This document shows positions 24,562 to 35,567 of a stretch of 41,620 nucleotides of DNA, piece by piece. Source of the DNA: a virus; the IMG/VR virus record IMGVR_UViG_3300044858_004093, positions 1-41,620 of that record. The stretch is one strand, 5' to 3'. A model generated the notes under the pieces. It was given only the letters and a program-made list of their open reading frames with translations. It made no database searches and was not told the origin of the DNA. The position numbers were made by a program, and so were the translations under genes. Position 1 is the first letter of the stretch, and each line of letters starts with the position of its first letter.

Positions 24562-24867
24562 GACACCAGCGTAGAGGACTGGGGGTCGCCGCCGCAAAGG
24601 GGTCCAGAACACGCCGAAAACACGGCGAATAGCCGTGTTTTCCAGATTCGCGAGTCAAGAAAGTCGGCGGCCAGCGAATGAGCCATACCGCCGCGAATAC
24701 GCGGGGCTGGGGACAGGCGGTCTGCCGTCTTTGGCTGGACGGGCGTACACCCCCCCTCCCCCCGGGGGGGCATGTTCTGCGGCGCGGCGCGGCGCGGGGC
24801 GATTCTCATCTGCTAAGTGTCCGACCACGACGATTGAATTCCCGCGGCGGCGCCGCCGATACTACAC
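24562..24867. other. Divergent control region between late and early operons
   Basis: No gene. It holds an 11-bp perfect inverted repeat (24616-24642), a tract of seven C, T, six C and seven G (24750-24770), a GCGGC-rich tract (24779-24799) and a 14-base palindrome CGGCGGCGCCGCCG (24845-24858), just before the early promoter at 24868. The mix of palindromes suggests operator, packaging or origin functions, but none is proven. Confidence 0.5.
24616..24642. promoter_or_regulatory. Palindrome upstream of the terminase gene
   Basis: GAAAACACGGC and GCCGTGTTTTC pair over 11 bp around the loop GAATA. On either strand a short T-run lies in the 3' arm. Its position 55 bases upstream of terS suggests an operator for a dimeric regulator or a bidirectional terminator. 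Confidence 0.5.
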
Positions 24868-24895
24868 TTGACACTTCCGCGGACCGTGCTATCCT
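24868..24895 (+). promoter_or_regulatory. Early promoter P1
   Basis: TTGACA (24868-24873), 16 bases, TATCCT (24890-24895) preceded by TGC (extended -10). The predicted start, about 24902, coincides with the palindrome that follows. P2 (28771) has the same spacing and a near-identical -10 context. Confidence 0.7.
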
Positions 24896-24953: not shown

Positions 24954-25088
24954 ATGATCATGCACAGAATCGGAAGCGTAATTTCTGGCACGTTGAACCC
25001 GCGGGAACTGGCAAACGAGTTTTTTCTCGAAGCCGACGGCCGCGGCGGGGCCGGACAATTGAACCGAAAGAAACGGAGACTCAAGACA
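24954..25088 (+). pseudogene. Remnant of a small gene, in frame with the next gene
   Basis: From ATG 24954, behind a GGAGA ribosome site, the frame reads MIMHRIGSVISGTLNPRELA then NEFFLE and continues without stop through the translated leader (LNRKKRRLKT) into the gene at 25089. The first 25 residues resemble the start of phage small proteins with a GTLRxEDLIPAF-like segment. It looks like a gene whose body has been lost by deletion between leader copies. It could also be a true 132-residue long form of the next protein. Confidence 0.35.
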
Positions 25089-25098
25089 ATGGAAACCG
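25047..25098 (+). repeat. 52-bp leader repeat, copy 1
   Basis: Identical over 52 bases to 25391-25442. It covers the untranslated leader, the GGAGA ribosome site, the ATG and the first codons (ATGGAAACCG), so two consecutive genes share one start cassette. Confidence 0.85.
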
Positions 25099-25352
25099 GA
25101 ACTATCGCGGTGGAAACCGCCGCTATCATCACTACCCGCTATATCGGCCCGACGAACTACAAGCCGGGCCGGGTAAAGGCGACGACGGGTAGCGGCAAAA
25201 CCGCTACATACTCGTGGGATCACGCGGCCGGAATTTTTGAGAATCACGCCGGCGCCGCGAAAGCGCTTGCAGGGAAACTGGGAATCGTCGGCCGTCGGAT
25301 TGTGGGCGGGGGCGTTCACGGAAGCGGGTACGCTTTCGCCTTCCTTCCATAG
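25089..25352 (+). CDS. Conserved small phage protein (IGPTN family), unknown function
   Basis: An 87-residue protein. The stretch AIITTRYIGPTNYKPGRVKA, then TYSWDHAAGIFENHAGAAKA, LAGKLG and a closing GSGYAFAF is a widely spread small protein of phages, where it usually reads AIxTKYLGPTNxRGSRIKA. Role unknown. ATG 25089 is chosen because the repeated leader places the same ribosome site before it and before the next gene at 25433; the upstream ATG at 24954 would give a longer form. It is the first intact early gene after P1. Confidence 0.75.
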   Translation: METGTIAVETAAIITTRYIGPTNYKPGRVKATTGSGKTATYSWDHAAGIFENHAGAAKALAGKLGIVGRRIVGGGVHGSGYAFAFLP

Positions 25353-25371: not shown

Positions 25372-25394
25372 CCCCGCGGCGCGTTGCCGCGGGG
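25372..25394 (+). other. Intercistronic hairpin before the 25433 gene
   Basis: CCCCGCGGC (25372-25380) and GCCGCGGGG (25386-25394) pair over 9 bp around a GCGTT loop. It follows a GGCTAC box at the previous stop and precedes the shared leader. Confidence 0.6.
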
Positions 25395-25442
25395 CCGGAC
25401 AATTGAACCGAAAGAAACGGAGACTCAAGACAATGGAAACCG
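25391..25442 (+). repeat. 52-bp leader repeat, copy 2
   Basis: Exact copy of 25047-25098. Its first bases also form the 3' arm of the hairpin at 25372-25394, so the hairpin is specific to this copy. Confidence 0.85.
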
Positions 25443-25936
25443 CAACCTATACCCCCGAATTCCTGAAGCGCTGGAAACTCCCGAGAGACTACGCCGGCGC
25501 AGACTGGCCGGAACACTACGTCTCTGCCGGTCGTCACCGGGATTCCGATTGTCTGACGGAATCGAATTTCTACGCTACCCTGCGCGCCGTCGGTGGAGAA
25601 TCGGAAACCGTCCAGATTGTGCGCGAGTCGCATTGGGCGGTCGGTTGGGTTGAATGGATTGCCATTCATGAAGACGATACGGCCGCATTGCGCGCGGCCG
25701 ATAGGTGTGCCGAACGTCTCAAGAGTTACCCGATTCTGGACGACGACGACTTTTCACGGCGAGAAGATGAGCAATGCGCCGAAGTGTGGGAGAACTGCTA
25801 TCGGCCCCGCGACCGGGCCGAGTATTTCCGACGACACAGTTATTCCGGCGGATTCCGCGAACTAATGGCAGCGGTCCGGGGCGATTGGAGTGAGGCCGCG
25901 GCAATCCTTCACAGTCCGTCCGACTTGCTTTCTTGA
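25433..25936 (+). CDS. Conserved early phage protein, unknown function
   Basis: A 167-residue acidic protein. The section ESHWAVGWVEWIAIHEDDTA, ALRAADRCAERLKSYPILDD and DDFSRREDEQCAEVWENCYR followed by RAEYFRRHS is a conserved block I recognise from hypothetical proteins of many phages. The N-terminal 60 residues hold Asp/Tyr-rich segments without known fold. It has no Cys cluster or membrane segment. ATG 25433 follows a GGAGA site nine bases upstream; the shared leader also encodes LNRKKRRLKT in frame before it, but that is probably not translated. Confidence 0.72.
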   Translation: METATYTPEFLKRWKLPRDYAGADWPEHYVSAGRHRDSDCLTESNFYATLRAVGGESETVQIVRESHWAVGWVEWIAIHEDDTAALRAADRCAERLKSYPILDDDDFSRREDEQCAEVWENCYRPRDRAEYFRRHSYSGGFRELMAAVRGDWSEAAAILHSPSDLLS

Positions 25937-25986: not shown

Positions 25987-26013
25987 CGCCGCGCGGCGCC
26001 CGATTGTGGAAAC
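25984..26013 (+). promoter_or_regulatory. Hairpin plus GTGGAAAC box before the 26028 gene
   Basis: GGGCGCC and GGCGCCC form a perfect 7-bp stem with a GCGC loop, followed by GATT and GTGGAAAC (26006-26013). GGGAGGG then serves as the ribosome site. It is one of more than twenty boxes in this module. Confidence 0.62.
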
Positions 26014-26027
26014 GGGAGGGAATGACG

Positions 26028-26384
26028 ATGGAAACGGAAACGGTACATTGTGAAGGATGCGGCGCGGCTTGCACAACCGGATACGGGCGAACGGCCGACG
26101 GGCGGCGGTTGTGTTTTTCATGCTGCGACGCGAGGGAACGGGCGGATTTTGCAGCGGCGGAAACATATTGCGCGTACGTTTCGGGCGACGGCCGGAATAT
26201 TTCAACGTGGCCGGGGGGCAAGCTGGCAACCGTAACCCACTCCCGCCGCCACCGTGGCGGTTTCGGTGGGGAGTATTTCACGGTTGATGCCACGTCGCCC
26301 GATGGTAGCCGATGGTACGGGCGCGGCGGCGGCCCGGGTATGTTCGTGCGGCTGAAACGGCGCAAGGCTACAGACCGCGCGTAA
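26028..26384 (+). CDS. Zinc-ribbon-like conserved phage protein
   Basis: A 118-residue protein. CEGCGAACTTGYGRTADGRR followed by LCFSCC gives a CxxC-x16-CxxC set for one zinc. Then come an ARERADF helix, NISTWPGGKL and a SPDGSRWYGRG segment. This order (GYxRxxDGxxxCxxCC, then ER, then NWPG, then RWxG) is that of a widespread phage family of unknown function. ATG 26028 is chosen over 26022 because GGGAGGG lies seven bases upstream and ACG-ATG is the usual start context here. A GGCTACAGAC motif lies at the end of the coding region. Confidence 0.72.
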   Translation: METETVHCEGCGAACTTGYGRTADGRRLCFSCCDARERADFAAAETYCAYVSGDGRNISTWPGGKLATVTHSRRHRGGFGGEYFTVDATSPDGSRWYGRGGGPGMFVRLKRRKATDRA

Positions 26385-26393
26385 ACGGCCCCG

Positions 26394-26439
26394 CGGCGCC
26401 CCCCGACGGTGGAAACCGGCGGGGGCAACCGCGGCGCCG
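26394..26439 (+). other. Compound stem-loop, class A element 2
   Basis: CCCCCG (26400-26405) pairs with CGGGGG (26420-26425). The tip is CGGT/ACCG with a GGAA loop, itself part of a GGTGGAAACC box. A lower stem GGCGCC/GGCGCC (26395-26400 and 26433-26438) can extend it. Confidence 0.6.
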
Positions 26440-26441
26440 TC

Positions 26442-26465
26442 AACGGGCGGCCCGTTCGTGGAAAC
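26442..26465 (+). promoter_or_regulatory. Hairpin plus GTGGAAAC box before the 26519 gene
   Basis: AACGGGC and GCCCGTT pair perfectly around a single G, followed by C and GTGGAAAC (26458-26465). A similar block (AACG...CGTTCGTGGAAACC) recurs at 26861-26887, showing duplication of the whole unit. Confidence 0.62.
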
Positions 26466-26518
26466 CGGCACGCGCCGGCACGGGGAGAATCTAAACACTG
26501 GAAACGGAGAGTATTCAT

Positions 26519-26803
26519 ATGCGCGGCTGGACCGTGAAACACTATCGCAACCTTGCCGGAGACGGCGCGACACGGGCGGAATATACCCGCGGGGATTTTG
26601 TCGTGACGGCGGCGGATGATTGTGACCCGGAGACGGGGCGGTATACGCGGCGGTGGATTTTGCTTTACCGCGGGTTTCAGCAAGGCGGGCGGGTCGATGC
26701 CAGCGGCGCCGGGGACGCAACATACCGCACGGCCGCGGAAGCCGCGGGGGAAGCCGATCGGATGGCGGCTGCGCTTGCCAAGAATATAGCGGCGGCCCGC
26801 TAA
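26519..26803 (+). CDS. Small early protein, unknown function
   Basis: A 94-residue protein (MRGWTVKHYRNLAGDGATRA, DFVVTAADDCDPETGRYTRR, WILLYRGFQQGGRVDASGAG, then a helical C-terminus EAAGEADRMAAALAKNIAAA). The N-terminal half is strand-rich and the end is one helix. No known family was recognised. A second diverged box, CTGGAAACGGAGAG, lies just before ATG and contains the GGAGAG ribosome site. The stop is followed two bases later by the large stem-loop at 26805. Confidence 0.65.
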   Translation: MRGWTVKHYRNLAGDGATRAEYTRGDFVVTAADDCDPETGRYTRRWILLYRGFQQGGRVDASGAGDATYRTAAEAAGEADRMAAALAKNIAAAR

Positions 26804-26804
26804 C

Positions 26805-26858
26805 CGCCCCGCCCGCAACCCCCGTCCGGCGAAACCGGCGGGGGCGACGGGCGGGGCG
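26805..26858 (+). other. Long stem-loop, class A element 3
   Basis: An 11-bp stem (CGCCCCGCCCG/CGGGCGGGGCG), an internal loop CAA/CGA, a 6-bp stem (CCCCCG/CGGGGG) and a tip CCGG-CGAAA-CCGG. It starts two bases after the stop codon. The element at 32385 has the same plan with different bases in the variable stems. Confidence 0.75.
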
Positions 26859-26901
26859 TCAACGTGGCGCCCCCGTTCGTGGAAACCGTGAGGGTTATAC
26901 A

Positions 26902-27273
26902 GTGCATTTCAATTGCAATTCGGAATATCGTGCCGTTGACATTTCATGCACCGGTGCCGAGTTCTTTCGGGCATGGAAACGGCGCCACGGCCGGCGCGTG
27001 AAAATGAAGCTATGCCCGCAAAGGCAGGGCGGATGGACACTGACGGCGGTTGTACCGCACCAACGGCTAGAGCACGGCCCCGCCGACGTTGAACTGTTCA
27101 TCTTGGTGGGCGACTACCGTACAGAATCATTCAACGACCAACCGACAGAGCACGCGGCGCGACGGGCCGCCCGTCGCGCCGCCGGTTACGATTCTGAAAT
27201 GGAACCGGAGACGGTTGCGGCTGCCGTGGCGCGTCTGGAAAAAGTCTGCCCGACAATGCGGGCGCCATGCTAA
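26902..27273 (+). CDS. Small early protein, unknown function
   Basis: A 123-residue protein starting at GTG 26902, chosen because GAGGG lies seven bases upstream and the frame otherwise runs back into the hairpin region. It reads MHFNCNSEYRAVDISCTGAE and FFRAWKRRHGRRVKMKLCPQ, then VELFILVGDYRTESF and a helical end PETVAAAVARLEKVCPTMRA. It has four scattered Cys but no zinc pattern. Nothing matches a known family by eye. The GTGGAAAC box at 26879 sits only 23 bases before the start, closer than usual. Confidence 0.6.
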   Translation: MHFNCNSEYRAVDISCTGAEFFRAWKRRHGRRVKMKLCPQRQGGWTLTAVVPHQRLEHGPADVELFILVGDYRTESFNDQPTEHAARRAARRAAGYDSEMEPETVAAAVARLEKVCPTMRAPC

Positions 27274-27468
27274 AACCCCGGCCGTGGAAACCGAAAGTAA
27301 CCCCGTCCTTAACAACCCCGAGGCCCGTTGCCCCGGCGCTCGCGGCTATCGGCAGGATATGGGATCGGTTGAAACGTGGGCGTAGGCTACAGACGGAGCA
27401 ACAAGGCCGGGCGGCACGTTGCCCCCGGCCGTGGAAACGAGTGGACCCCTAGAAAGAGGAAAACGACG
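27274..27468 (+). promoter_or_regulatory. Gap with two boxes and a hairpin
   Basis: No gene. It contains GTGGAAAC at 27284-27291, GGCTACAGAC at 27385-27394, a GGCCGGG...CCCGGCC inverted repeat (27405-27430) and GTGGAAAC at 27431-27438, followed by AGAGGAAAACGACG before ATG 27469. This is the complete standard order of the module. Confidence 0.6.
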
Positions 27469-27939
27469 ATGGACATTCTCAACACTCTTGGCATCACAAT
27501 CGACGCGACATTCATTCCCCGCGATACCCCGGCCGGCGAAACGCCGACGCTGCGGTGGCGGGTGTCCGTCCGGCGAAACGGGCGGGAGTTTCACGCGACG
27601 GACTATTCGGCCGGCTGCGCTCATGCCCCGGAATACAAGAAAGCGAAGGCGCTCACGGCGGCCGTGAAGGCCGAGTGCGAGACGGGCATCCTTTACGGGA
27701 ATCGTCTCGGCCGCCCCGTGCCGCCGCCGCCCGTGGCCGACGTTGTGCATAGCTTGCTCATGGATGCCAGCGGGACAGACGACCGTTTTGAGGATTGGGC
27801 GGCGAACTACGGGTATGCCCCAGACAGTCGCACGGCCGAGCGTATGTTCAACGCCTGCCGCGAGACGGCGGCGGCCCTGCGCCGGACGTTCACGGCCGAC
27901 GAATTGACGGCGGTGGAGACGGCTTTCGTAGACTACTGA
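27469..27939 (+). CDS. Conserved phage protein (ADVxxSLxxDA family), unknown function
   Basis: A 156-residue protein. The N-terminal half reads TLRWRVSVRRNGREFHATDY and SAGCAHAPEYKKAK. The C-terminal half reads VADVVHSLLMDASGTDDRFE, DWAANYGYAPDSRTAERMFN and ACRETAAALRR. This combination is familiar from many phage genomes, where the second half is written LADVLYSLxxDAxxLDxGTFEDWA. No biochemical role is known to me. It starts at ATG 27469 after AGAGGAAAACGACG. Confidence 0.75.
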   Translation: MDILNTLGITIDATFIPRDTPAGETPTLRWRVSVRRNGREFHATDYSAGCAHAPEYKKAKALTAAVKAECETGILYGNRLGRPVPPPPVADVVHSLLMDASGTDDRFEDWAANYGYAPDSRTAERMFNACRETAAALRRTFTADELTAVETAFVDY

Positions 27940-27950
27940 CCAAGACGATA

Positions 27951-27977
27951 CGGGGGCAGGCCAGTTGCCTGCCCCCG
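27951..27977 (+). other. Perfect 11-bp hairpin after the 27939 stop
   Basis: CGGGGGCAGGC and GCCTGCCCCCG pair fully around the loop CAGTT, 12 bases after the stop. There is no U-run; a variant box ATGGAAAC follows at 27981. Confidence 0.65.
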
Positions 27978-28001
27978 TGGATGGAAACGCGACGGCCACA
28001 A

Positions 28002-28028
28002 CCCCCGGCCGTGGAAACACGACGGGGG
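28002..28028 (+). other. Stem-loop with GAAA tetraloop, class A element 4
   Basis: CCCCCG (28002-28007) pairs with CGGGGG (28023-28028), and CGTG/CACG closes a GAAA loop. The GTGGAAAC box is therefore the tip of the hairpin. The flanking ACAA and CGACGG match elements 3 and 5. Confidence 0.68.
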
Positions 28029-28094
28029 CGACGGATGGGCCGGCAGCGTGCCGACCCGGAACGTGAGAACGATAGCAACAAAGGAACCTTGACG

Positions 28095-28373
28095 ATGCAA
28101 AAGACATTCTTAGCCAGAGTCGACTACGCGGCAAAGTGGATAACCAGCGGGCGCCCCACAACAAGAAGTTTCGATTCGTGTTTTGAGTGCTATGACGGGG
28201 ACGCCGTTGTGCTGGCTCTGTGCAGGCGGGCAGAGAAAAACGATCGTTTGCGGCAAGGACTGCCGCGGTACATAGCCGAAACGAGTATCCGCGACGTACC
28301 CGCTCGCTATGAAGGCAGGCGGCCGTCCGACGTCTCTCGCGAGCTGGTTGCTAAAGCCGACAGACGAGGCTAG
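28095..28373 (+). CDS. Small early protein, unknown function
   Basis: A 92-residue protein: MQKTFLARVDYAAKWITSGR, PTTRSFDSCFECYDGDAVVL, ALCRRAEKNDRLRQGLPRYI, then AETSIRDVPARYEGRRPSDV and a basic end. CFEC is a single Cys pair without partner. No family was recognised. A degenerate box, GTGAGAAC, sits 32 bases before ATG, and AAGGAACC just before it may be a weak ribosome site. The region after the stop is rich in repeats. Confidence 0.6.
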   Translation: MQKTFLARVDYAAKWITSGRPTTRSFDSCFECYDGDAVVLALCRRAEKNDRLRQGLPRYIAETSIRDVPARYEGRRPSDVSRELVAKADRRG

Positions 28374-28463
28374 CGAGGGGGGTGCCGGCAACGAGCCTGC
28401 CCCGAGCGTGGAAACCCGGAGGACTCGAGGATGCCCCCGAGCGTGGAAACCAAGGGTATCCAA

Positions 28464-28581
28464 GGTCGGCCACCTGGGCGACCGCTGCCGCCGTCCAGCC
28501 GCAGGCCACGACCTCATCGAGGTGGTCGGCCACCTGGGCGACCGCTGCCGCCGTCCAGCCGCAGGCCACGACCTCATCGAG
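28464..28581. repeat. Tandem duplication, two 58-bp copies, period 60
   Basis: Bases 28464-28521 are repeated exactly at 28524-28581 with a GT spacer. On the minus strand it reads as a 20-residue repeat around DEVVACGWTAAAVAQVADH, with no start or ribosome site. It probably arose by recent slippage or unequal recombination. Confidence 0.85.
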
Positions 28582-28609
28582 CGCCGGCCTGCCGGCTCGT
28601 CCCCCGACC

Positions 28610-28739
28610 GTGGCAACCCGCCCCCCGGATCGTAGAAACCCGAACCCCGACCATAGAAACCCCGACCGTGGAAACCCCGACCGTGGCAACCCGAATTCTC
28701 ACGATCCCAAGTGTCCACCGAACCCCGGATCGCAGAAAC
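28610..28739 (+). repeat. Array of GTGGAAAC box variants
   Basis: Boxes start at 28610 (GTGGCAAC), 28632 (GTAGAAAC), 28653 (ATAGAAAC), 28668 (GTGGAAAC), 28683 (GTGGCAAC) and 28732 (GCAGAAAC), each preceded by CCCCGAYC or CCCGGATC. Spacing is 22, 21, 15, 15 and 49 bases. Confidence 0.75.
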
Positions 28740-28770
28740 CCTCGCGAAAACCGATGGAAATATTTTAGGC

Positions 28771-28798
28771 TTGACCCGCCCCGTGACGATGCTATCTT
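28771..28798 (+). promoter_or_regulatory. Early promoter P2
   Basis: TTGACC (28771-28776), 16 bases, TATCTT (28793-28798) with TGC before it. An A/T-rich stretch (GGAAATATTTTAGG) lies upstream like an UP element. The predicted start is about 28805, at the foot of the hairpin 28806-28824 (GGCCGGGA/TCCCGGCC, loop CGA). Confidence 0.7.
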
Positions 28799-28805
28799 CA
28801 TGCGT

Positions 28806-28832
28806 GGCCGGGACGATCCCGGCCGTGGAAAC
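28806..28832 (+). promoter_or_regulatory. 5'-end hairpin plus GTGGAAAC box after P2
   Basis: A perfect 8-bp stem with a three-base loop, directly followed by GTGGAAAC (28825-28832) and then ACCCCGATAGAGGAAACGCG before ATG 28860. It is the cleanest example of the modular leader. Confidence 0.7.
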
Positions 28833-28859
28833 CGTGACCCCGATAGAGGAAACGCGACG

Positions 28860-29207
28860 ATGAAAATGATCCACTTCCCTGAACCGATGGGGCTGCGGCC
28901 GCGGCCGGCGAGCGATTACGATCTGCTCTGCCTGCGGTTCTACCGGGCGGGCGTGGCCCGCAATGCGGCCGTGGCAATGGTGCTGGCCCGTGAGCTGGCG
29001 CAGCGTTTCGGCGACGACGTCGCCGACGATGCCTACGGTCACGGGCAGATGCTCAATTCATGCGAGGTGCGTGATGCCCGGGTGCGGTGCAGCATCGAGT
29101 ACGCGACCGCCGGCCTGGATGCCGCCTCCGAGATCGACGGATTCGACAGCATGACCGCAGCCGAGCTGGCCGACGAGGTAACCTACCTCGCTGACCATCA
29201 AGGCTAG
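28860..29207 (+). CDS. Small early protein, unknown function
   Basis: A 115-residue acidic protein: MKMIHFPEPMGLRPRPASDY, DLLCLRFYRAGVARNAAVAM and VLARELAQRFGDDVADDAYG, then CSIEYATAGLDAASEI and AAELADEVTYLADHQG. It is mostly helical, with no Cys pattern or membrane span. It is the first gene behind P2. GAGGAAACGCGACG precedes the ATG, giving a strong ribosome site. It could be a small regulator, but no DNA-binding motif is evident. Confidence 0.65.
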   Translation: MKMIHFPEPMGLRPRPASDYDLLCLRFYRAGVARNAAVAMVLARELAQRFGDDVADDAYGHGQMLNSCEVRDARVRCSIEYATAGLDAASEIDGFDSMTAAELADEVTYLADHQG

Positions 29208-29225
29208 GCTCCAGACCGACACACT

Positions 29226-29250
29226 CGCGGCCGGCGTGTTGCCAGCCGCG
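29226..29250 (+). other. Intercistronic hairpin before the clamp gene
   Basis: CGCGGC-C-GGC and GCC-A-GCCGCG pair with one mismatch around GTGTT. It lies ten bases after the GGCTCCAGAC box (29207-29216). Here the GTGGAAAC box is missing and only CCCCGAACGAGGAAACG precedes ATG 29285. Confidence 0.55.
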
Positions 29251-29284
29251 GCGGATCGATGACCCCGAACGAGGAAACGCGACG

Positions 29285-30382
29285 ATGAACACGACCGAAA
29301 CCCTCCCGACGATCGCAGCTTTGAAGACCGCCCGCGGCCGGAAGACCGGCGCGGTGATCCAGCGCACCGCCACCCGGATGACCACCACCACCACCGATGG
29401 CGACGTCTGGGTGACGATCGCCAGCCCCGACGACGGCGGCGCCGAGGGCTATGAGGTCTTCCAGCCGGGGAACGTGGCCGACGCCCCGACGATGAGCGAC
29501 CGCCGGACGTTCGCGGCGGCGCTCAACTGGCGACAGGTCGAGCAGATCGTCGGCGCCGTCGTGCCGGCGACCGACACCGAGACGAGCCGCTATGCTCTCG
29601 GCGGGACGCTCATCGAATGCCGCGAGGGATCGATGCTCGCGGTCGTGGCGACCGATGGTCGCCGCCTCCACGCGGCGCACCTCCAGCCGTCCAGCATCGC
29701 GGGCGGGACGCCCGAGCATTGCGTCGTGCCGGCGGATGCCTGGAGGCGGCTGGCGGCCGTCACGCGGGCCGCGGTGAAGGCTGTGCGCGGCCTGGCCGGC
29801 AAGGCGCTCGCCGCCGCCCTCCTGCGGGGCGCGGTGACCGTCGAGACGGACGGGACGGTCGTCCGGCTCGTCTGGGGGCATGGCGACCTGTCGGTGATGA
29901 TCTCCACCCGGCTCATCCAAGGCCGGTTTCCGCGGTGGCGGGACGTCGTCGAGCCGGCGACCGCCGACGTCGGCGGGATCGTCGTGGACGTCGATACGAT
30001 GACGGCCGAGGTGGCCGAGTTCTCCCGCCGGCACCGGGCCGAGGTGGCGACCGCGAAGGCCGCCTGGACCGCCGCGGCGGCCGTGGCGAAGCAGCAGCGA
30101 AAGTATCACGCCCCGTTCAAGCATGATCGCGGGTTGTGGGTTGGCCCCGAGGGGATGGAGGGCCGCGGGGCGACGTTCGTGAATCAGGTGCGGTCGGCCC
30201 CGGCCCGCGTCTGCCTGGACCATGCCTTCCTGGCCGACGCGCTGGCGGCGGTTGAGCTGTTCAGCCCGTCCGGCACCGCGGTGGTGCAGGCCGCCGATGC
30301 CCTGTCGGCCGTGGCGATCGGGAAGGGCATCGAGGCCGGTGAGCGTGTGGTCGCCGTGATGATGCCTCTGGCGATCGACTGA
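29285..30382 (+). CDS. DnaN-like sliding clamp
   Basis: A 365-residue protein, about the length of bacterial beta clamps (366 in E. coli). The middle domain has SRYALGGTLIECREGSMLAV and VATDGRRLHAA (residues 101-131), the hallmark of DnaN domain 2, then STRLIQGRFPRWRDVV (207-222), equivalent to the grip GRFPdY motif. The protein ends VVAVMMPLAID, like the VMPMRL terminus of DnaN. The first 80 residues are diverged. A dimeric ring should tether a polymerase to DNA, yet no polymerase or clamp loader lies in this window, so it may serve a host enzyme or act in late transcription or repair. Confidence 0.78.
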   Translation: MNTTETLPTIAALKTARGRKTGAVIQRTATRMTTTTTDGDVWVTIASPDDGGAEGYEVFQPGNVADAPTMSDRRTFAAALNWRQVEQIVGAVVPATDTETSRYALGGTLIECREGSMLAVVATDGRRLHAAHLQPSSIAGGTPEHCVVPADAWRRLAAVTRAAVKAVRGLAGKALAAALLRGAVTVETDGTVVRLVWGHGDLSVMISTRLIQGRFPRWRDVVEPATADVGGIVVDVDTMTAEVAEFSRRHRAEVATAKAAWTAAAAVAKQQRKYHAPFKHDRGLWVGPEGMEGRGATFVNQVRSAPARVCLDHAFLADALAAVELFSPSGTAVVQAADALSAVAIGKGIEAGERVVAVMMPLAID

Positions 30383-30401
30383 GGCTACCAGACGAGACTA
30401 C

Positions 30402-30441
30402 GGGGGCCGGCGCGTGACCGGCCCCCCTGGAACGTGGAAAC
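30402..30441 (+). promoter_or_regulatory. Hairpin plus GTGGAAAC box before the 30470 gene
   Basis: GGGGGCCGG (30402-30410) and CCGGCCCCC (30418-30426) pair over 9 bp; CTGGAAC and then GTGGAAAC (30434-30441) follow. A GGCTACCAGAC box lies at 30383-30393. ATG is 36 bases from the start of the box. Confidence 0.65.
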
Positions 30442-30469
30442 GAGTGACCACCGAGCGAGGAAACGAGAG

Positions 30470-30670
30470 ATGAGCACCTACCGCATCGTCCGCTGCTACA
30501 CGAACGACGGCCACCGGCCGCGCACCATCAAGCGCGGCTTGACCCTGGAGCAGGCGCAGGCCCACTGCCGCAGCCCCGAGACGTCGAGCCGGACGGCGAC
30601 CAGCGCCGCCGCTCGCCGGCGCACCAAGGCGCGCGGTCCCTGGTTCGATGCCTACGACGAGGACCGTTGA
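30470..30670 (+). CDS. Conserved small phage protein, unknown function
   Basis: A 66-residue protein: MSTYRIVRCYTNDGHRPRTI, KRGLTLEQAQAHCRSPETSS, then a basic stretch and a closing GPWFDAYDED. This pattern (TYRIVRF, RxIxxGLTLEEAQxHCxxPxTSS, WFDGYEE) belongs to a very common small phage protein of unknown role. ATG 30470 is chosen behind GAGGAAACGAGAG. Confidence 0.78.
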   Translation: MSTYRIVRCYTNDGHRPRTIKRGLTLEQAQAHCRSPETSSRTATSAAARRRTKARGPWFDAYDEDR

Positions 30671-30759
30671 CCCGGCCGCCTGCGGCCGGCGGCGAGGGGG
30701 ATGCCGGCGATCGACGCCTGCCCCGAATGTGGAAACCCGAGAGACGAGGAACCCGGATC

Positions 30760-31002
30760 ATGGCAACGAAGCAGAAGACCCGCACCTACCGTATCCGCCG
30801 CGAGTGGACGGTCGTCATGGAGTCGTGGATCGAGGTCGAGGCCGAGAACGTCGAAGCCGCGTGTGCGGCGGCCATAGAAGACGACGACTACGACGATCAA
30901 GAGATCGCGCCCGACAGCGACGGGCCGACCTACATCGGAGCCGTCGAGCGTGACGGCGATGCCCTGGAAGTGCCGTACCACTGGACGGAGGAGTCGCTCT
31001 GA
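30760..31002 (+). CDS. Small acidic protein, DpnD/PcfM-like
   Basis: An 80-residue acidic protein: TRTYRIRREWTVVMESWIEV, EAENVEAACAAAIEDDDYDD and PTYIGAVERDGDALEVPYHW. The strand WTVVMESWIEVEA followed by a helix NVEAACAAAIED resembles the DpnD/PcfM-like family of small phage and plasmid proteins. Its role is unknown. It follows a hairpin (CCGGCCG/CGGCCGG near 30663) and a GTGGAAAC box (30729). The stop overlaps the next ATG (TGATG). Confidence 0.65.
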   Translation: MATKQKTRTYRIRREWTVVMESWIEVEAENVEAACAAAIEDDDYDDQEIAPDSDGPTYIGAVERDGDALEVPYHWTEESL

Positions 31003-31334
31003 TGACCCCGACCATCGAAACCGGCGGCTACCGGCTCTCCCCTCGCGTGACGCTCCAACCGGGCGACACGTTCCGGGTGGCCGGCGGCCCCTACTACAGG
31101 CTCGCGGACGGGCGGCGGGTGCCGATGGCGGCCCGCGGCGTGTTCCGGCTCTCTGAGGTCGTCAGGCAGCGGAGCCGCGTCTATCTGCTCGCCTACGGGC
31201 CTGGCGGATGGGCGCTGCTCCACGTTGAGGGCCGGCGGCGGTCGGCGGTCGCGGGCCTGGTCGCCCGGCCGTATCGGGTGCGGCGGGCCGGGCGGAAATG
31301 TTGCAGGGTTGACCCTAGCAGGGTCGATGCTTAG
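31002..31334 (+). CDS. Small basic protein, unknown function
   Basis: A 110-residue protein starting at the TGATG overlap, so translation is coupled. PGDTFRVAGGPYYRLADGRR and VPMAARGVFRLSEVVRQRSR suggest a small SH3-like or OB-like barrel. The end is very basic (RPYRVRRAGRKCCRVDPSR). The C-terminal codons overlap promoter P3, so part of the tail may have been shaped by regulatory sequence. No family was recognised. Confidence 0.6.
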   Translation: MTPTIETGGYRLSPRVTLQPGDTFRVAGGPYYRLADGRRVPMAARGVFRLSEVVRQRSRVYLLAYGPGGWALLHVEGRRRSAVAGLVARPYRVRRAGRKCCRVDPSRVDA

Positions 31335-31337
31335 GAT
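31309..31337 (+). promoter_or_regulatory. Early promoter P3
   Basis: TTGACC (31309-31314), 17 bases, TAGGAT (31332-31337), overlapping the end of the 31002 gene. The predicted start is about 31344. A perfect hairpin (31359-31374) and a GTGGAAAC box follow, as at P2. The -10 fit is weaker than for P1 and P2. Confidence 0.55.
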
Positions 31338-31358
31338 ACTGACGCAGACATTACGGCA

Positions 31359-31386
31359 GGGGCCGCGTGGCCCCGAACGTGGAAAC
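31359..31386 (+). promoter_or_regulatory. Hairpin plus GTGGAAAC box after P3
   Basis: GGGGCC and GGCCCC form a 6-bp stem with loop GCGT, then GAAC and GTGGAAAC (31379-31386), ACCCCGAGCGGAGGAACGAG and ATG 31415, 36 bases from the box start. Confidence 0.65.
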
Positions 31387-31414
31387 GGGAACCCCGAGCG
31401 GAGGAACGAGAATC

Positions 31415-31690
31415 ATGGGAGCGATGAAGCGATTTTACGAAGAGTGCGCTGAGGCAGGCCGATGCCCGCTGACGCGGGAGACGTTCGATTGGCTGGACGA
31501 CGTCGAGTGCCAGCACCAGCTCGACTGGATCGGCTACTGCGAGCACGACCTGTTCGACGCCTCTGGCCGGATGATCGGCTACGAGGACTGCATCGAGATG
31601 GCGTCGGCCCGCCGGCTCGTTGCCGAGGGGCTGGCGAACGACGAGATCAAGTTTTTCGTGGAGTGCTTCGGGGACTACTGCCCGGCCTGA
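31415..31690 (+). CDS. Small acidic Cys-rich protein, unknown function
   Basis: A 91-residue protein: MGAMKRFYEECAEAGRCPLT, RETFDWLDDVECQHQLDWIG and YCEHDLFDASGRMIGYEDCI, then a helix ASARRLVAEGLANDEIK and FFVECFGDYCPA. Seven cysteines are spread over the length without a classical zinc spacing. The fold is probably helical. ATG 31415 is used because GGAGG lies ten bases before it; ATG 31424 is an alternative. It is first behind P3. Confidence 0.62.
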   Translation: MGAMKRFYEECAEAGRCPLTRETFDWLDDVECQHQLDWIGYCEHDLFDASGRMIGYEDCIEMASARRLVAEGLANDEIKFFVECFGDYCPA

Positions 31691-31696
31691 CCGGCC

Positions 31697-31762
31697 AGCC
31701 GCCCCGGCTCGTTGCCTGGGCGGCTCGATTGATGGATGATTCACCAGACCCCCGGACGGGGG
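31697..31762 (+). other. Two hairpins before the 31785 gene
   Basis: AGCCGCCC (31697-31704) pairs with GGGCGGCT (31718-31725). CCCCCG and CGGGGG (31749-31762) form a short second stem with loop GA, followed by AACGAGAGGAGAGGG as ribosome site. Here the fixed arms of class A are used without a GTGGAAAC box. Confidence 0.55.
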
Positions 31763-31784
31763 AACGAGAGGAGAGGGAATAATC

Positions 31785-32381
31785 ATGGCAGACATCATTG
31801 CGACCGTGGCCTGGAATTGCGGGGAGCACGACTGCCCCGTCGGATGGCATAAGTCCAGTTACTGGCTGGACGATGACGGCACCTACACCGTGGACAACTA
31901 CAGCGACGGCGACCATGAAGAGGTCGGTGCGGATGATCTCCCGACCGCCGACGAGATCGACAGGTCGTGGCTTGACTACTCGCGGGACGTTGCCTCGACC
32001 GGCTGCGACCCGCTGGGCGAGTTCTTCGTACCCCGCACGACGAAACGGAAGGAGCGGTACACCGCGGCCTTCCGGCCGTCGATCCTGGGCGGCCTCCTTG
32101 TCGCCGTGAGGCGAGGCGGCAAGGTCGTGCCGCTGCGTGATCTCCCGCAGCGAGTGATCGACTACCTTGACTGCGAGCGGATGCCTGGTGCGGCTGGCAA
32201 TCTCCGGTTCCGCGGCGGGTGGCAGGAGTTGACCGGCCTGGACTGCGCGAAGCTCTACCGCGGCACGGCCCGCGTCACGTTCACGCTCGACCATGAGGAA
32301 CCGAGGCCCGAGGCGGCCGTCGAGGCCGATCTGCGGCGGGCGGCTCGCCGGCACCTGCGAGAGAACAAGGCGACGGCCTGA
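31785..32381 (+). CDS. Early protein of 198 residues, unknown function
   Basis: MADIIATVAWNCGEHDCPVG and WHKSSYWLDDDGTYTVDNYS form a strand-rich, His/Cys-containing N-terminal part that might bind metal. The middle (DEIDRSWLDYSRDVASTGCD, PLGEFFVPRTTKRKERYTAA) and the C-terminal part (LPQRVIDYLDCERMPG, TARVTFTLDHE, then LRRAARRHLRENKATA) look like mixed strands and helices. No recognised family. The stop is followed four bases later by a class A stem-loop. Confidence 0.65.
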   Translation: MADIIATVAWNCGEHDCPVGWHKSSYWLDDDGTYTVDNYSDGDHEEVGADDLPTADEIDRSWLDYSRDVASTGCDPLGEFFVPRTTKRKERYTAAFRPSILGGLLVAVRRGGKVVPLRDLPQRVIDYLDCERMPGAAGNLRFRGGWQELTGLDCAKLYRGTARVTFTLDHEEPRPEAAVEADLRRAARRHLRENKATA

Positions 32382-32384
32382 CGA

Positions 32385-32436
32385 CCCGCCCGCAACCCCC
32401 GGCCGGCGAAACGCTGGCACGGGGGCGACGGGCGGG
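32385..32436 (+). other. Long stem-loop, class A element 5
   Basis: CCCGCCCG/CGGGCGGG (8 bp), internal loop CAA/CGA, CCCCCG/CGGGGG (6 bp) and a tip GCCGGC-GAAAC-GCTGGC with one G.T wobble. It matches the plan of element 3 (26805) with compensating changes in the tip. Its right arm overlaps the next hairpin. Confidence 0.75.
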
Positions 32437-32461
32437 CCGACGCGGCCCGGAGCGTGGAAAC
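32433..32461 (+). promoter_or_regulatory. Hairpin plus GTGGAAAC box before the 32491 gene
   Basis: CGGGCCG (32433-32439) and CGGCCCG (32443-32449) pair over 7 bp; GAGC and GTGGAAAC (32454-32461) follow. The 5' arm shares four bases with the 3' arm of element 5, so the two folds exclude each other. Confidence 0.62.
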
Positions 32462-32490
32462 CCATAACCCTAGAGACGAGGAGAGCGAAG

Positions 32491-32919
32491 ATGACGACCA
32501 AGACACTGACCCACCAGCAAATCGCCGCCATGCGAGACGAGGCCGCGGCGGCTCGCGACTACGCGATGGTCGATACCTGCACCCGAGCGATCGGCGGCGA
32601 CGAGGCCGCGGTGGAGGTCGTGGCAACGGCGATTGCCGATGCGGCCGCGATGGATGACGAGGCGCCAGCGGCGGCGACCGAATACGGGCTGGCACTGTAC
32701 GAGCATGACGAGACCTACGCGGCCGTGATCGACCGCGACGGCGTGGCGCTCGACCGTCACGATGCGCCGGAGTGCGACGCGCACGGATGGGGCTACTCGG
32801 TCGGCGACACGATCGAGATCGACGGCAGGCAGTGCAGGCTGACCCAGGTGTCTGGCGACATCCAGACCGGCGACACTCGCGGACACTACGTCGAGGCGAT
32901 TGCCCGCGTGATCGGCTGA
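32491..32919 (+). CDS. Conserved early phage protein, unknown function
   Basis: A 142-residue acidic protein. The N-terminus LTHQQIAAMRDEAAAARDYA, MVDTCTRAIGGDEAAVEV and VATAIADAAAMDDE is a helical block often seen in phage hypothetical proteins (typically IRALRxEAAxAGDxxMVxICxRAL). The C-terminal half is strand-rich (GYSVGDTIEIDGRQCRLTQV, TRGHYVEAIARVIG). Role unknown. GACGAGGAGAGCGAAG precedes the ATG. Confidence 0.7.
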   Translation: MTTKTLTHQQIAAMRDEAAAARDYAMVDTCTRAIGGDEAAVEVVATAIADAAAMDDEAPAAATEYGLALYEHDETYAAVIDRDGVALDRHDAPECDAHGWGYSVGDTIEIDGRQCRLTQVSGDIQTGDTRGHYVEAIARVIG

Positions 32920-32930
32920 CCAATCACCCC

Positions 32931-32955
32931 GCCCGCCGGCACGGGGCCGGCGGGC
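32931..32955 (+). other. Perfect 10-bp hairpin before the 32984 gene
   Basis: GCCCGCCGGC and GCCGGCGGGC pair around ACGGG. It is followed by GCAAACCACAGAGACGAGGAG, in which the usual GTGGAAACC is reduced to GCGCAAACC. Confidence 0.65.
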
Positions 32956-32983
32956 GCAAACCACAGAGACGAGGAGACGAGCG

Positions 32984-33535
32984 ATGCGACCCTACGACGA
33001 GATGACCGACGAGCGGCGGTGCGAAGCCGGAGCCGGCCTGCACTACAAGAGCCGCGAGTGGGGCGAGATTTTCAATACTGGCGGATGGGATGGTGCCTGG
33101 CCGGAGATCGACCGGCACGGCAAGCTGACCGGCCGTATCGTTGGCGACGAGGACGGCTACTTGAACGTGAACGACGAGGCGATGATCTCCGAAGCCGAGG
33201 CTCGCGCCGGTGGCTGGAGTCGTCCTGACGATGGATACGCCGAGCCGCCAGCTGGTGTGATGCCGATGGTCGAGGTGCTCGTCTGCCACCGTTCCGGTAT
33301 CGCTGGCGCGCGATGGTGCCGGCCGGTCGGCTGGACGCCGCGGAACAGGATCGCAGACGCCGACTGGGTGGAGTCCGATGGCTCATGGTGGGGCGAGGCT
33401 GGGGAGGAGGCCGGCATCGTGATATTCGGACACGACGAGGAGGGCGACACGGTGACCGTTGGCCTTGACGACCTCCGCGTGGCGTCGTGCGGCGAGTGCC
33501 GCGTTATCGCAGATGTTCAAGTCGATTTTGCCTGA
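32984..33535 (+). CDS. Early protein of 183 residues, unknown function
   Basis: MRPYDEMTDERRCEAGAGLH opens a Trp-rich N-terminal half (REWGEIFNTGGWDGAWPEID, then GWSRPDD). The second half carries VEVLVCHRSGIAGARWCRPV, DWVESDGSWWGEAGEEAGIV and GDTVTVGLDDLRVASCGECR. The Trp/Gly-rich strands suggest a small beta domain. Cys are not in zinc spacing. No family was recognised. GAGGAGACGAGCG precedes ATG 32984. Confidence 0.65.
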   Translation: MRPYDEMTDERRCEAGAGLHYKSREWGEIFNTGGWDGAWPEIDRHGKLTGRIVGDEDGYLNVNDEAMISEAEARAGGWSRPDDGYAEPPAGVMPMVEVLVCHRSGIAGARWCRPVGWTPRNRIADADWVESDGSWWGEAGEEAGIVIFGHDEEGDTVTVGLDDLRVASCGECRVIADVQVDFA

Positions 33536-33563
33536 CCCCGGCCCGCAGCAACCAGTGTTCGAT

Positions 33564-33598
33564 TTACCCCTGCCGCCCCGTGCGGCGAAACCAGAGGA
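33564..33598 (+). repeat. Leader cassette repeat, copy 1
   Basis: TTACCCC plus a 28-base block TGCCGCCCCG...CCAGAGGA is repeated at 33804-33839 with one extra C. The block contains a 5-bp hairpin (GCCGC/GCGGC, loop CCCGT), a GAAACC box and the AGAGGA ribosome site. Confidence 0.8.
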
Positions 33599-33606
33599 GA
33601 GAGACG

Positions 33607-33801
33607 ATGAAGCGTGAATATGTGGCGGTGATGGACGGCGAAGGCCGCGCACCCGACGAGATCGTGAAATCCTGCGTGGCGTCGAGCCGGCAGGTTGCCG
33701 AGCGCAAGCTCAACGGCGATCTCTACCTCGTGATGACCCGCCGGCAGGCCGAGGCCCGCGGCATCCAAGACCTTCGCGAGCAGACGCGGTTCTGCCGGTG
33801 A
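33607..33801 (+). CDS. Small basic protein, unknown function
   Basis: A 64-residue protein: MKREYVAVMDGEGRAPDEIV, KSCVASSRQVAERKLNGDLY and LVMTRRQAEARGIQDLREQT. It has one N-terminal strand and two helices. The helix pair SSRQVAERKLN and TRRQAEARG is compatible with nucleic acid binding but not diagnostic. It is preceded by the first copy of a repeated leader cassette. Confidence 0.62.
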   Translation: MKREYVAVMDGEGRAPDEIVKSCVASSRQVAERKLNGDLYLVMTRRQAEARGIQDLREQTRFCR

Positions 33802-33803
33802 AA

Positions 33804-33839
33804 TTACCCCCTGCCGCCCCGTGCGGCGAAACCAGAGGA
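33804..33839 (+). repeat. Leader cassette repeat, copy 2
   Basis: Second copy of the 33564 cassette, starting right after the previous stop. Hairpin arms are 33813-33817 and 33823-33827. Two neighbouring genes thus share one start signal, as at 25047/25391. Confidence 0.8.
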
Positions 33840-33849
33840 CCGAAATACG

Positions 33850-34122
33850 ATGGACAAGCAGAAACTGGAAGACGCCGTGAAAACCGTCGTCGCGCTGGAG
33901 GGGCGACCGCTGCCGCTGCTGTCGGCAGACGAGCGAGCCATCTGCGACCTGCTATCAGAGCAGCGAGAGTGGCACGCCTCGGCGGTCGGCCTGACGCGGT
34001 GGATACGGAAAGACAAGGACGCGAGGAAAGCGGACAGGGCGATCGCGGAGGCCGCAGAGCGTCTGTGGGCCGGGATGCTCATCGGCAAGGATACGGACGG
34101 CAACTACTACTACACCGGCTAA
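33850..34122 (+). CDS. Small helical protein, unknown function
   Basis: A 90-residue protein: MDKQKLEDAVKTVVALEGRP, LPLLSADERAICDLLSEQRE, WHASAVGLTRWIRKDKDARK and ADRAIAEAAERLWAGMLIGK, ending in DGNYYYTG. It is almost all helix with a mixed charge pattern and no Cys. It could be a small DNA-binding or inhibitor protein, but nothing specific can be read. It is followed closely by the next gene (15-base gap with AAAGGCGAGGCG as ribosome site). Confidence 0.62.
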   Translation: MDKQKLEDAVKTVVALEGRPLPLLSADERAICDLLSEQREWHASAVGLTRWIRKDKDARKADRAIAEAAERLWAGMLIGKDTDGNYYYTG

Positions 34123-34137
34123 CAGAAAGGCGAGGCG

Positions 34138-34323
34138 ATGAACAACAGAGTGTCACCCTACGAAGCCGGCTGGCTCACGTTCCTGGTCGAGCACGGCCTG
34201 GCGACGGCGGCGGCGGCCCGCGAGGCACAGAATCGCGTGGCACAGGAGGCCGTCCGCGAACTGGAGGAGCGGAGGAAGCGGCGGCGGGCCGAACGCCGCC
34301 GCAAAAACCGCGAGGAGGACTAG
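34138..34323 (+). CDS. Small Arg-rich helical protein, unknown function
   Basis: A 61-residue protein: MNNRVSPYEAGWLTFLVEHG, LATAAAAREAQNRVAQEAVR, then an extended basic helix with RKRRRAERRRKNREED. The strongly charged C-terminal helix suggests nucleic acid or acidic-protein binding. Start ATG 34138 overlaps nothing. The stop is followed by duplicated TAGGCTACYGGCCGA sequences. Confidence 0.6.
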   Translation: MNNRVSPYEAGWLTFLVEHGLATAAAAREAQNRVAQEAVRELEERRKRRRAERRRKNREED

Positions 34324-34365
34324 GCTACTGGCCGATAGTCTGTGTAGGCTACCGGCCGAGATAGT
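34321..34365 (+). repeat. Direct repeat TAGGCTACYGGCCGA...ATAGT
   Basis: TAGGCTACTGGCCGATAGT (34321-34339) is repeated with two extra bases and one change at 34345-34365, period 24. It is a duplicated form of the GGCTAC box that follows stop codons elsewhere in the module. Confidence 0.7.
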
Positions 34366-34394
34366 GGACTGTGGCAACCCAGAGGAGCAGAGCG

Positions 34395-34700
34395 ATGAAG
34401 AGGATCGAGGGATTCAATACAGGTGACCAAGCGTGGTCGGCATGGGTGTCGATCTCGCAGCACAGGCCGATCGCCGCCGCGGCGGCATCGGTGTGCCTGG
34501 AGCTGGTCGAGGTCGTCATGCCCGAGGGGGGCATTGTCCGGCCCCACGGCCAGTCGCCGCGAGTCCTCTACTACCATGAGCGTTTGTTCCCGACCCAAGC
34601 GGAGGCACGCCAGTGGGTGGCCGCGCAGGTGGCAGCCGGTGCGGCAAGCCTCGCCAAGCAGGCCGCCGACCTGGCCGATCCGGTCGTGGTGACCGTATGA
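34395..34700 (+). CDS. Small early protein, unknown function
   Basis: A 101-residue protein: MKRIEGFNTGDQAWSAWVSI, SQHRPIAAAAASVCLELVEV and VMPEGGIVRPHGQSPRVLYY, then HERLFPTQAEARQWVAAQVA and a helical end. The second half (FPTQAEARQWVAAQV) looks like a strand followed by a long helix. No known domain. GAGGAGCAGAGCG precedes ATG 34395 and a GTGGCAAC box lies at 34371. The TGA overlaps the next ATG. Confidence 0.62.
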   Translation: MKRIEGFNTGDQAWSAWVSISQHRPIAAAAASVCLELVEVVMPEGGIVRPHGQSPRVLYYHERLFPTQAEARQWVAAQVAAGAASLAKQAADLADPVVVTV

Positions 34701-34966
34701 TCGGCATCGTCCGCGATACCTGGCGGGCTGTGCTCGTCCTGGTCGTCGCCGTGCTCCTCCGCGGCATCGTCGCGGAGGAGCCGACGCCGGCCGTGCCGCC
34801 CCCGTGGCAACCGGCACCCGTTCAGTGGCAACCCCCGCCCGTGGCAACCGGGGCGTGGCAACCAGCGGCGGCACCGCCCCCGGCCGTGGAAACCAAAGGT
34901 CCGATTCGACGGGTCGCCCGCGAACTCGTAGACTTGTCCGAGGCTGTCATAGGAGTACTGCGATGA
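34697..34966 (+). CDS. Small membrane or secreted protein with Pro/Trp-rich linker encoded by box repeats
   Basis: An 89-residue protein. Residues 1-25 form a signal or anchor (MIGIVRDTWRAVLVLVVAVL then LRGIVAEE). Residues 30-67 are PPWQPAPVQWQPPPVATGAW followed by QPAAAPPPAVETKG. This section is the direct translation of at least five GTGGCAACC/GTGGAAACC boxes with their C-rich spacers, read in different frames (WQP, VAT, VET). The end is a helix ARELVDLSEAVIGVLR. Function unknown. It is coupled to both neighbours by overlaps. Confidence 0.65.
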   Translation: MIGIVRDTWRAVLVLVVAVLLRGIVAEEPTPAVPPPWQPAPVQWQPPPVATGAWQPAAAPPPAVETKGPIRRVARELVDLSEAVIGVLR

Positions 34967-35262
34967 ACCTGGAAGACCTCGTCACACCGGCCGACGCCGC
35001 GGCGGCGATCGGCGCACCGAACAAGCGTGCCGTCTACCGCGCAATCGCTCGAGCCGAGGCGGCCGGCGAGGACGTCACATACACCGCCTTCGGCCGCCGG
35101 CTGATCCGGCGCGACCGGCTCGACGTCGTCAAGAAGTACTACTTCCCCTACTACTCCGACGCTCATCAGGCCAGCGTGCGGAAGTGGGGGGCCGCCGGGG
35201 GCGCAGCCTCCGGCGTCACAAAACGCCTGCGGAAGGCGGCCAAGGAGAAGGGGGCCGGCTAA
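34963..35262 (+). CDS. Winged-helix/HTH DNA-binding protein, conserved in phages
   Basis: A 99-residue protein starting at ATG 34963 (ATGA overlap). LVTPADAAAAIGAPNKRAVY and RAIARAEAAGEDVTYTAFGR followed by RLIRRDRLDVVKKYYFPYYS is a phage-type helix-turn-helix with wing, of a family often written LTPAEAAREIGAxNRRAVYR. The C-terminus is a basic Gly/Ala-rich tail (KWGAAGGAASGVTKRLRKAA). It is probably a transcription regulator or site-specific DNA binder. It ends the early module and overlaps the HNH gene's stop by four bases. Confidence 0.72.
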   Translation: MNLEDLVTPADAAAAIGAPNKRAVYRAIARAEAAGEDVTYTAFGRRLIRRDRLDVVKKYYFPYYSDAHQASVRKWGAAGGAASGVTKRLRKAAKEKGAG

Positions 35263-35567
35263 CGGCCCTCGCTGGCCGTCTTCAAGCCGTGGCAGCGTCG
35301 GCAGAGCAGTTGCAGCCCCGACAGCGGCGTGGCCTCTGCGGCCTCGTGGAGGGGCTTGGCGGTGATGTGATCGACCTGGCTGTCCCCAGGGCGGTGGCAG
35401 ACCTTCCCGCAGGCGGCGCAGCACCCCCCGGCACGGGCGATCACGGCCTTCCGAACCCGCTGCCACGCCGGCGAACCGTACCCCCGTGCGTTGGAACTCG
35501 GGCGGGCCTCCTCCGTCCGGCGAAACGAGCCGAAGCGCGGCCTATACGTTGGGATTCTGCGCGGCAC
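35259..35567 (-). CDS. HNH endonuclease
   Basis: About 102 residues from GTG 35567 (ATG 35591 is the alternative). The core reads WQRVRKAVIARAGGCCAACG, VDHITAKPLHEAAEATPL and LQLLCRRCHGLKTASEG. It gives the CxxC...VDHI...CxxCH pattern of HNH nucleases with structural zinc. Such proteins either aid terminase (packaging) or act as free-standing homing endonucleases. It lies 11 kb from terL, at the tail-to-tail junction with the early operon, so the packaging role is not implied by context. Confidence 0.82.
   Translation of the reverse strand: MPRRIPTYRPRFGSFRRTEEARPSSNARGYGSPAWQRVRKAVIARAGGCCAACGKVCHRPGDSQVDHITAKPLHEAAEATPLSGLQLLCRRCHGLKTASEGR

Follow-up and report, generated by a model that had tools for sequence, protein, structure and literature searches.

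Stoperators of the temperate Cluster A mycobacteriophages are recognized by the immunity repressor, a phage-encoded protein with an HTH and a Stoperator domain, and block elongation. In L5 and TipsytheTRex, this short asymmetric site occurs in more than 20 copies, close to promoters or within short intergenic gaps, with all copies oriented with transcription (PMC9283540). Cluster K phages carry SAS/ESAS, a one-orientation sequence (consensus GGGATAGGAGCCC) located just before many start codons; about half of the copies adjoin an inverted repeat, and the authors see little support for mRNA hairpins (PMC3203893). BldC, a small MerR-like winged-HTH protein, binds same-direction repeats head-to-tail; its repeats are short, contiguous, and of the form AATTXXXX(C) (PMC5859096).

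We analyzed an entire IMG/VR virus record of 41,620 bp (the window), which contains 41 forward copies of a 16-mer, here called a box. Like Cluster A stoperators, the boxes have one orientation (41:1) and lie mostly outside genes; they differ in length (16-mer versus 13-mer), in sequence, in forming a clustered array accompanied by a tandem-repeat block, and in having RNA hairpins and a Shine-Dalgarno form at single sites. The position of SAS/ESAS just before start codons is matched by the single boxes in leaders, but not by the window array. The consensus also differs (CCCCGNNCGNNGAAAC here), the stems here vary in a compensated way, and tandem repeats accompany the array, whereas the available sections on Cluster K mention none (PMC3203893). 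Stoperators and start-associated sequences thus appear nearest in kind, by likeness only; we claim membership in neither. We found no published description of this arrangement: a literature text search for GTGGAAAC plus phage returned an unrelated match only. A CRISPR array was rejected because the array linkers are variable, not near-constant unrelated spacers.

The six variants that the preliminary description had reported in one stretch are all present as written, all on the + strand between 28602 and 28739: CCCCGACCGTGGCAAC (box 1, 28602 to 28617), CCCGGATCGTAGAAAC (box 2, 28624 to 28639), CCCCGACCATAGAAAC (box 3, 28645 to 28660), CCCCGACCGTGGAAAC (box 4, 28660 to 28675), CCCCGACCGTGGCAAC again (box 5, 28675 to 28690), and CCCGGATCGCAGAAAC (box 6, 28724 to 28739), where relatives have a CCCCGGATCGTAACAAC-like sequence. 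The recurring unit is longer than the 8-mer described earlier; it is the 16-mer CCCCGNNC-GNNGAAAC, with information highest in CCCCG, in C and G at positions 8 and 9, and in GAAAC, the last positions being fixed by construction because our search demanded G-x-AAC. Box spacings are 14 to 26 bp and more, without helical phasing, and linkers are variable, mostly −1 to about 10 bp. Since a different conserved element (28697 to 28716) parts box 6 from boxes 1 to 5, the stretch comprises two different things: boxes 1 to 5, then the element followed by box 6.

When the window was shuffled 100 times with its dinucleotides preserved, + strand 16-mers averaged 1.5 and never exceeded 7, compared to the 41 observed (1 on the − strand); no shuffle had more than two boxes in any 146-bp stretch, compared to six in the array. 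Allowing one mismatch, GTGGAAAC occurs 63 times (27 expected; shuffle maximum, 40). With one exception at 11857, the + strand 16-mers are confined to the early region, 25998 to 35511, and box positions lie mostly outside called genes, though 63 to 86% of the regions is coding. A second cluster of box-like sequences (34796 to 34893) falls within a proline-rich reading frame (34613 to 34966), so some of these sites may simply belong to a coding region.

Late genes (terminase, portal, and head) occupy the − strand from 24.6 kb leftwards, and early genes the + strand from 24.9 to 35.3 kb. A strict σ70 pattern yielded three promoters in the window, all on the + strand: P1 (TTGACA-N16-TATCCT, 24868 to 24895), P2 (TTGACC-N16-TATCTT, 28771 to 28798), and P3 (31309 to 31337). 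P1 opens a transcription unit that ends at the array, which lies upstream of P2. The conserved element between boxes 5 and 6 is operator-like, 20 bp long, and separate from the box array: one + strand copy (TCTCACGATCCCAAGTGTCC, 28697 to 28716) precedes the P2 −35 by 74 bp, another (TCTCATCTGCTAAGTGTCC, 24804 to 24822, + strand) precedes P1 by 64 bp, the window has no further copy, and box-type relatives retain it. Control of P2 through the array alone is not supported: P1 and P2 have this TCTCA...AAGTGTCC element (24804 and 28697) in common, and P1 has no array. P3 has a hairpin-box leader and lacks the TCTCA element.

In the window, and in the related records G005, G011, and G012, the start of the box nearest upstream of the conserved element is 96 to 99 bp before the −35, with no gene between; several relatives have a gene between array and P2. 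The statement that the array lacks a gene start holds for the window and fails in several relatives, where the array runs directly into a small gene. The P2 leader, all on the + strand, consists of a hairpin (GGCCGGGACGATCCCGGCC, 28806 to 28824), a distal single box (TCCCGGCCGTGGAAAC, 28817 to 28832), and a proximal box with a Shine-Dalgarno sequence (CCCCGATAGAGGAAAC, 28838 to 28853) 6 nt before the ATG of the first gene behind P2 (28860 to 29207, + strand; 115 amino acids, no family match).

Single-box leaders generally follow this order (hairpin, box, Shine-Dalgarno box, ATG) and are intercistronic: most lie between neighboring genes, and a σ70-type promoter pattern precedes just 17 of 170. 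The Shine-Dalgarno form, GAGGAAAC, lies 5 to 9 nt before the ATG, and GTGGAAAC or GGCGAAAC mostly 10 to 29 nt before it; within a leader the two forms are mostly 21 to 23 nt apart, which are also the commonest array spacings. A perfect stem of at least four pairs closing a CGT triloop was found at 41 of 161 distal single boxes (2.1 in shuffles), and C-G and G-C exchange at pair levels 5 to 8 of these stems; that is, the changes are compensatory. Only 1 of 119 array boxes has a stem, which bears out the earlier remark that array boxes have no hairpins. The hairpins, spacing, and intercistronic location argue for an mRNA role for single boxes, which may act in mRNA, and leave the role of the array undecided. 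Rfam gave only a sub-threshold gabT match (E = 0.15). As separate candidates, a CsrA-type (GGA) decoy was rejected because many box variants lack GGA, and an ECF-σ −35 because no −10-like element lies at a fixed distance. A 61-nt repeat, 97% identical (25042 to 25102 and 25386 to 25446), spans the leader and start of neighboring early genes.

In one rival reading the array is a transcribed decoy: the tandem repeat and array would form the 3′ untranslated end of the P1 transcript and sequester an RNA-binding factor that acts on the hairpin-box leaders of the early genes. Leaders and array do share the same box, always in sense orientation; the leaders are intercistronic and hairpin-linked; and the array is codirectional with the P1 unit, with no intrinsic terminator found between array and P2 and no terminator-like site found in 28050 to 29300. 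Such a transcribed decoy nevertheless seems unlikely to us, given that array boxes lack the hairpin and that the relatives with σ54-type promoters described below keep an array, at a near-fixed distance upstream of a promoter, and have leaders that lack matching boxes (just 13 of 139 contain ACCCG).

Two pattern scans found exact single or paired boxes in 17 records besides the window, and a third scan added more; most of these records have an array of at least three boxes. The preliminary description had suggested comparing array length among related phages and held that absence of an array from relatives would refute its proposal; arrays of 3 to 7 boxes are present in at least 22 related viral records, although G004, G006, and G007 are near-duplicates, so these counts overstate independence. 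In relatives checked on both strands, the box keeps to a single strand and concentrates in the early module, with 20 to 37 forward and 0 to 2 reverse copies in many of them; G002 has a single copy, probably by chance. A tyrosine recombinase is encoded in 27 of 28 records, which makes a temperate lifestyle probable for these phages; only the window has none, as it lacks the integrase region and may be incomplete. A conserved late protein of the A2 family, encoded in G009 (72,419 bp; locus L058, 9922 to 11844, − strand), has an apparent intein-like interruption with a homing-endonuclease-like part; L158 and L159 also have a longer match to this protein.

Between the array and two further + strand boxes upstream, both CCCCGAGCGTGGAAAC (28400 to 28415 and 28435 to 28450), stands a perfect 60-bp tandem repeat, present as two copies in the assembly (28464 to 28583), although the true copy number may be higher. 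In most relatives a noncoding tandem-repeat block likewise lies directly before the array: this is the case for 22 of 33 arrays (at least three boxes), compared to 2 of the 548 sites that have one or two boxes and 0.65% of positions picked at random. The repeat unit ranges from 13 to 76 bp and its sequence differs from phage to phage. Many relatives' contigs start or stop inside the block and are unrelated at the other end, the pattern expected of an assembly break; the block accounts for many of these contigs breaking here. The sequence GGGTATCyAmGGTCGGCCACCTGG lies beside the tandem repeat (window 28435 to 28490), recurs next to the array of G013 (L063), and is found in diverged form beside the tandem repeats of both L104 and L106; a short peptide, KGI-GRPPG, may be encoded by it. 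A GP88-family gene (PF17338) lies ahead of the tandem repeat in L012 (12828 to 13556), L016 (2173 to 3030), L058 (475 to 1434), and L095 (4467 to 5294).

The earlier proposal of a site where the repeat multiplies gains some support from the block, the varying copy number, and the 20 to 40 copies per early region. Another rival reading makes the array functionless: short repeats derived from leaders would multiply, together with the tandem repeat, through recombination or slippage at a junction that tolerates such growth. The variation among phages in array copy number and tandem-repeat sequence fits such passive expansion, as does the likeness of array units to leader units in sequence and spacing. 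We consider it improbable all the same, since box positions are as conserved in arrays as in leaders and the place of the array is kept across deep divergence, change of box dialect, and change of promoter.

Promoter change became apparent among 69 loci gathered by a search with a neighboring late gene (A2): 37 have at least five boxes (box type), 14 have at least four σ54-type promoters on the early strand (σ54 type), none has both, and 18, many of them short or distant, have neither. Boxes and σ54-type promoters thus never co-occur at these loci (Fisher P = 3e-6, with thresholds set after the data were seen). In σ54-type loci, a start codon follows within 60 nt at 40 of 44 unique sites; many early genes in L104 to L108, L111, L112, L115, L116, L136 to L138, and L152 have their own such promoter (TGGCACG-N4-TTGCA). 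The early region of the window has no σ54-type site. No σ54 activator (PF00158) scored above the cutoff in 28 records, so a host activator would be needed.

Relatives without GTGGAAAC have a diverged, GACCCGTCCGTGATAAG-like array, usually after a tandem repeat. In 13 σ54-type loci, it comprises 3 to 7 units with a period of 17 to 23 bp, and its last unit lies either 8 or 26 to 31 bp before the next σ54-type promoter, a near-constant placement that suits control at the DNA level. The unit ACCCGTCCGTGATAAG is identical to CCCCGTCCGTGGAAAC at 12 of 16 positions, which suggests that diverged and box arrays are homologous. A separate idea, that σ54-type arrays are copies of their own leaders, was rejected because ACCCG is too weakly enriched there (9% of leaders versus 2% of coding sequence). 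Being directly upstream of a GG-N10-GC promoter, these arrays resemble σ54 upstream activator sites; their units, however, are direct, nonpalindromic, and very close to the promoter, and the window promoter is σ70 type, the downstream σ54 promoter being absent in the window and present in 13 relatives. The array layout is kept by dozens of related, probably temperate phages even after the promoter type has changed.

The late-gene tree requires at least three switches between the two systems and the trees of two early genes require only one (all built by a quick method, some rows being short); early modules therefore appear to be exchanged as blocks. Tentatively, and with rather less than even confidence, we suggest a swappable early-control module, composed of a tandem-repeat block, a dialect-specific array, and a matched winged-HTH protein, that is exchanged between phages with the same late genes. 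It would work either with σ54-type promoters before many early genes or with a σ70 promoter and hairpin-box leaders.

The candidate array binder in the window is a 99-amino-acid winged-HTH protein (34963 to 35262, + strand). Its family is represented in all 51 classified loci (37 of 37 of box type, 14 of 14 of σ54 type), and in G003, G008, and G017 a family member is the gene immediately after the array. Another early gene cosegregates with the system as cleanly, so cosegregation does not single out the HTH protein. Its AlphaFold model (pLDDT 81, pTM 0.60) predicts a small winged-HTH fold whose C-terminal helix is long; the best alignments are to the ParA2 N-domain, pSK1 Par on centromere DNA, Pukovnik Xis, RacA, and BldC, all winged-HTH DNA binders, with Z scores (5.4 to 7.7) that the tool describes as common between unrelated folds and that are too low to prove kinship. 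Foldseek with this model gave no match at E < 0.5. The modeled fold would resemble that of BldC- and Xis-type proteins; unlike BldC repeats, the array units here are 14 to 26 bp apart and GC-rich.

Direct repeats beside a tandem-repeat block could instead be bound by a replication initiator, making the locus an iteron-type origin. The 3 to 7 repeats of 16 to 17 bp have one orientation, like the same-direction repeats of about 17 to 22 bp in iteron origins, and adjoin a promoter, and a gene that follows in the window has weak sliding-clamp matches. No initiator was recognized beside the array, where several neighboring genes are GP88 (PF17338) or have no assignment; moreover, the cumulative GC-skew minimum lies near 16 to 18 kb, away from the array, with skew following gene direction, and the box recurs ahead of many early genes. 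On this balance, we think an origin improbable.

We favor the reading that a phage regulator binds the direct repeats of the array as DNA, where two early transcription units meet, and put its probability at about 0.5; the decoy, origin, and passive-expansion readings each retain appreciable weight. The array survives change of leaders, box dialect, and promoter class, and in one whole group it has a near-fixed place upstream of a promoter; both argue for action at the DNA level. The boxes would be asymmetric, same-direction, cis-acting sites at the junction of the P1 and P2 units. A sequence-specific phage protein, most likely the winged-HTH protein, would occupy neighboring 16-bp sites on the DNA, and the bound protein would set the activity of the promoter behind the array, stop read-through from P1, or both. 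In this clade, the 16-mer also became part of the leaders of individual early genes, after the hairpin and in one form with a Shine-Dalgarno sequence. The binding array for a regulator that the preliminary description had suggested is thus our preferred explanation as well, strengthened by the conservation of arrays in relatives; what we infer is protein binding, the identity of the binder, its action at the DNA level, and whether the effect is positive or negative. Against this reading stand the lack of an array at P1, the unphased spacings, and the gene between array and P2 in several relatives, as well as the RNA-level features of single boxes, which lie 25 to 29 nt before the ATG and adjoin compensatory hairpins.

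The host is possibly a member of the Planctomycetota. This assignment is weak because bacterial matches to the double-box pattern were few, coding, or in a binned phage contig: Streptomyces and Xanthobacter genomes, rejected as a host sign, had no more than two or three copies; the first match in a planctomycete, also rejected, was a coding PVVET repeat; and L070, which drew the same phylum sample as the Planctomycetota genome, is a contig of phage origin that had been binned into a MAG. Late-protein homologues matched in 6 of 392 planctomycete genomes; around distant homologues in four planctomycete genomes, neither boxes nor σ54 sites were found in number.

Should a phage regulator bind the array, these uncultured, apparently temperate phages would have their own stoperator-like control system, and the box dialects would provide a natural test of co-change between a regulator and dozens of its sites. 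Because homologous early genes are expressed via σ54-type promoters or via hairpin-box leaders, never both, these phages also allow a direct comparison of the two strategies.
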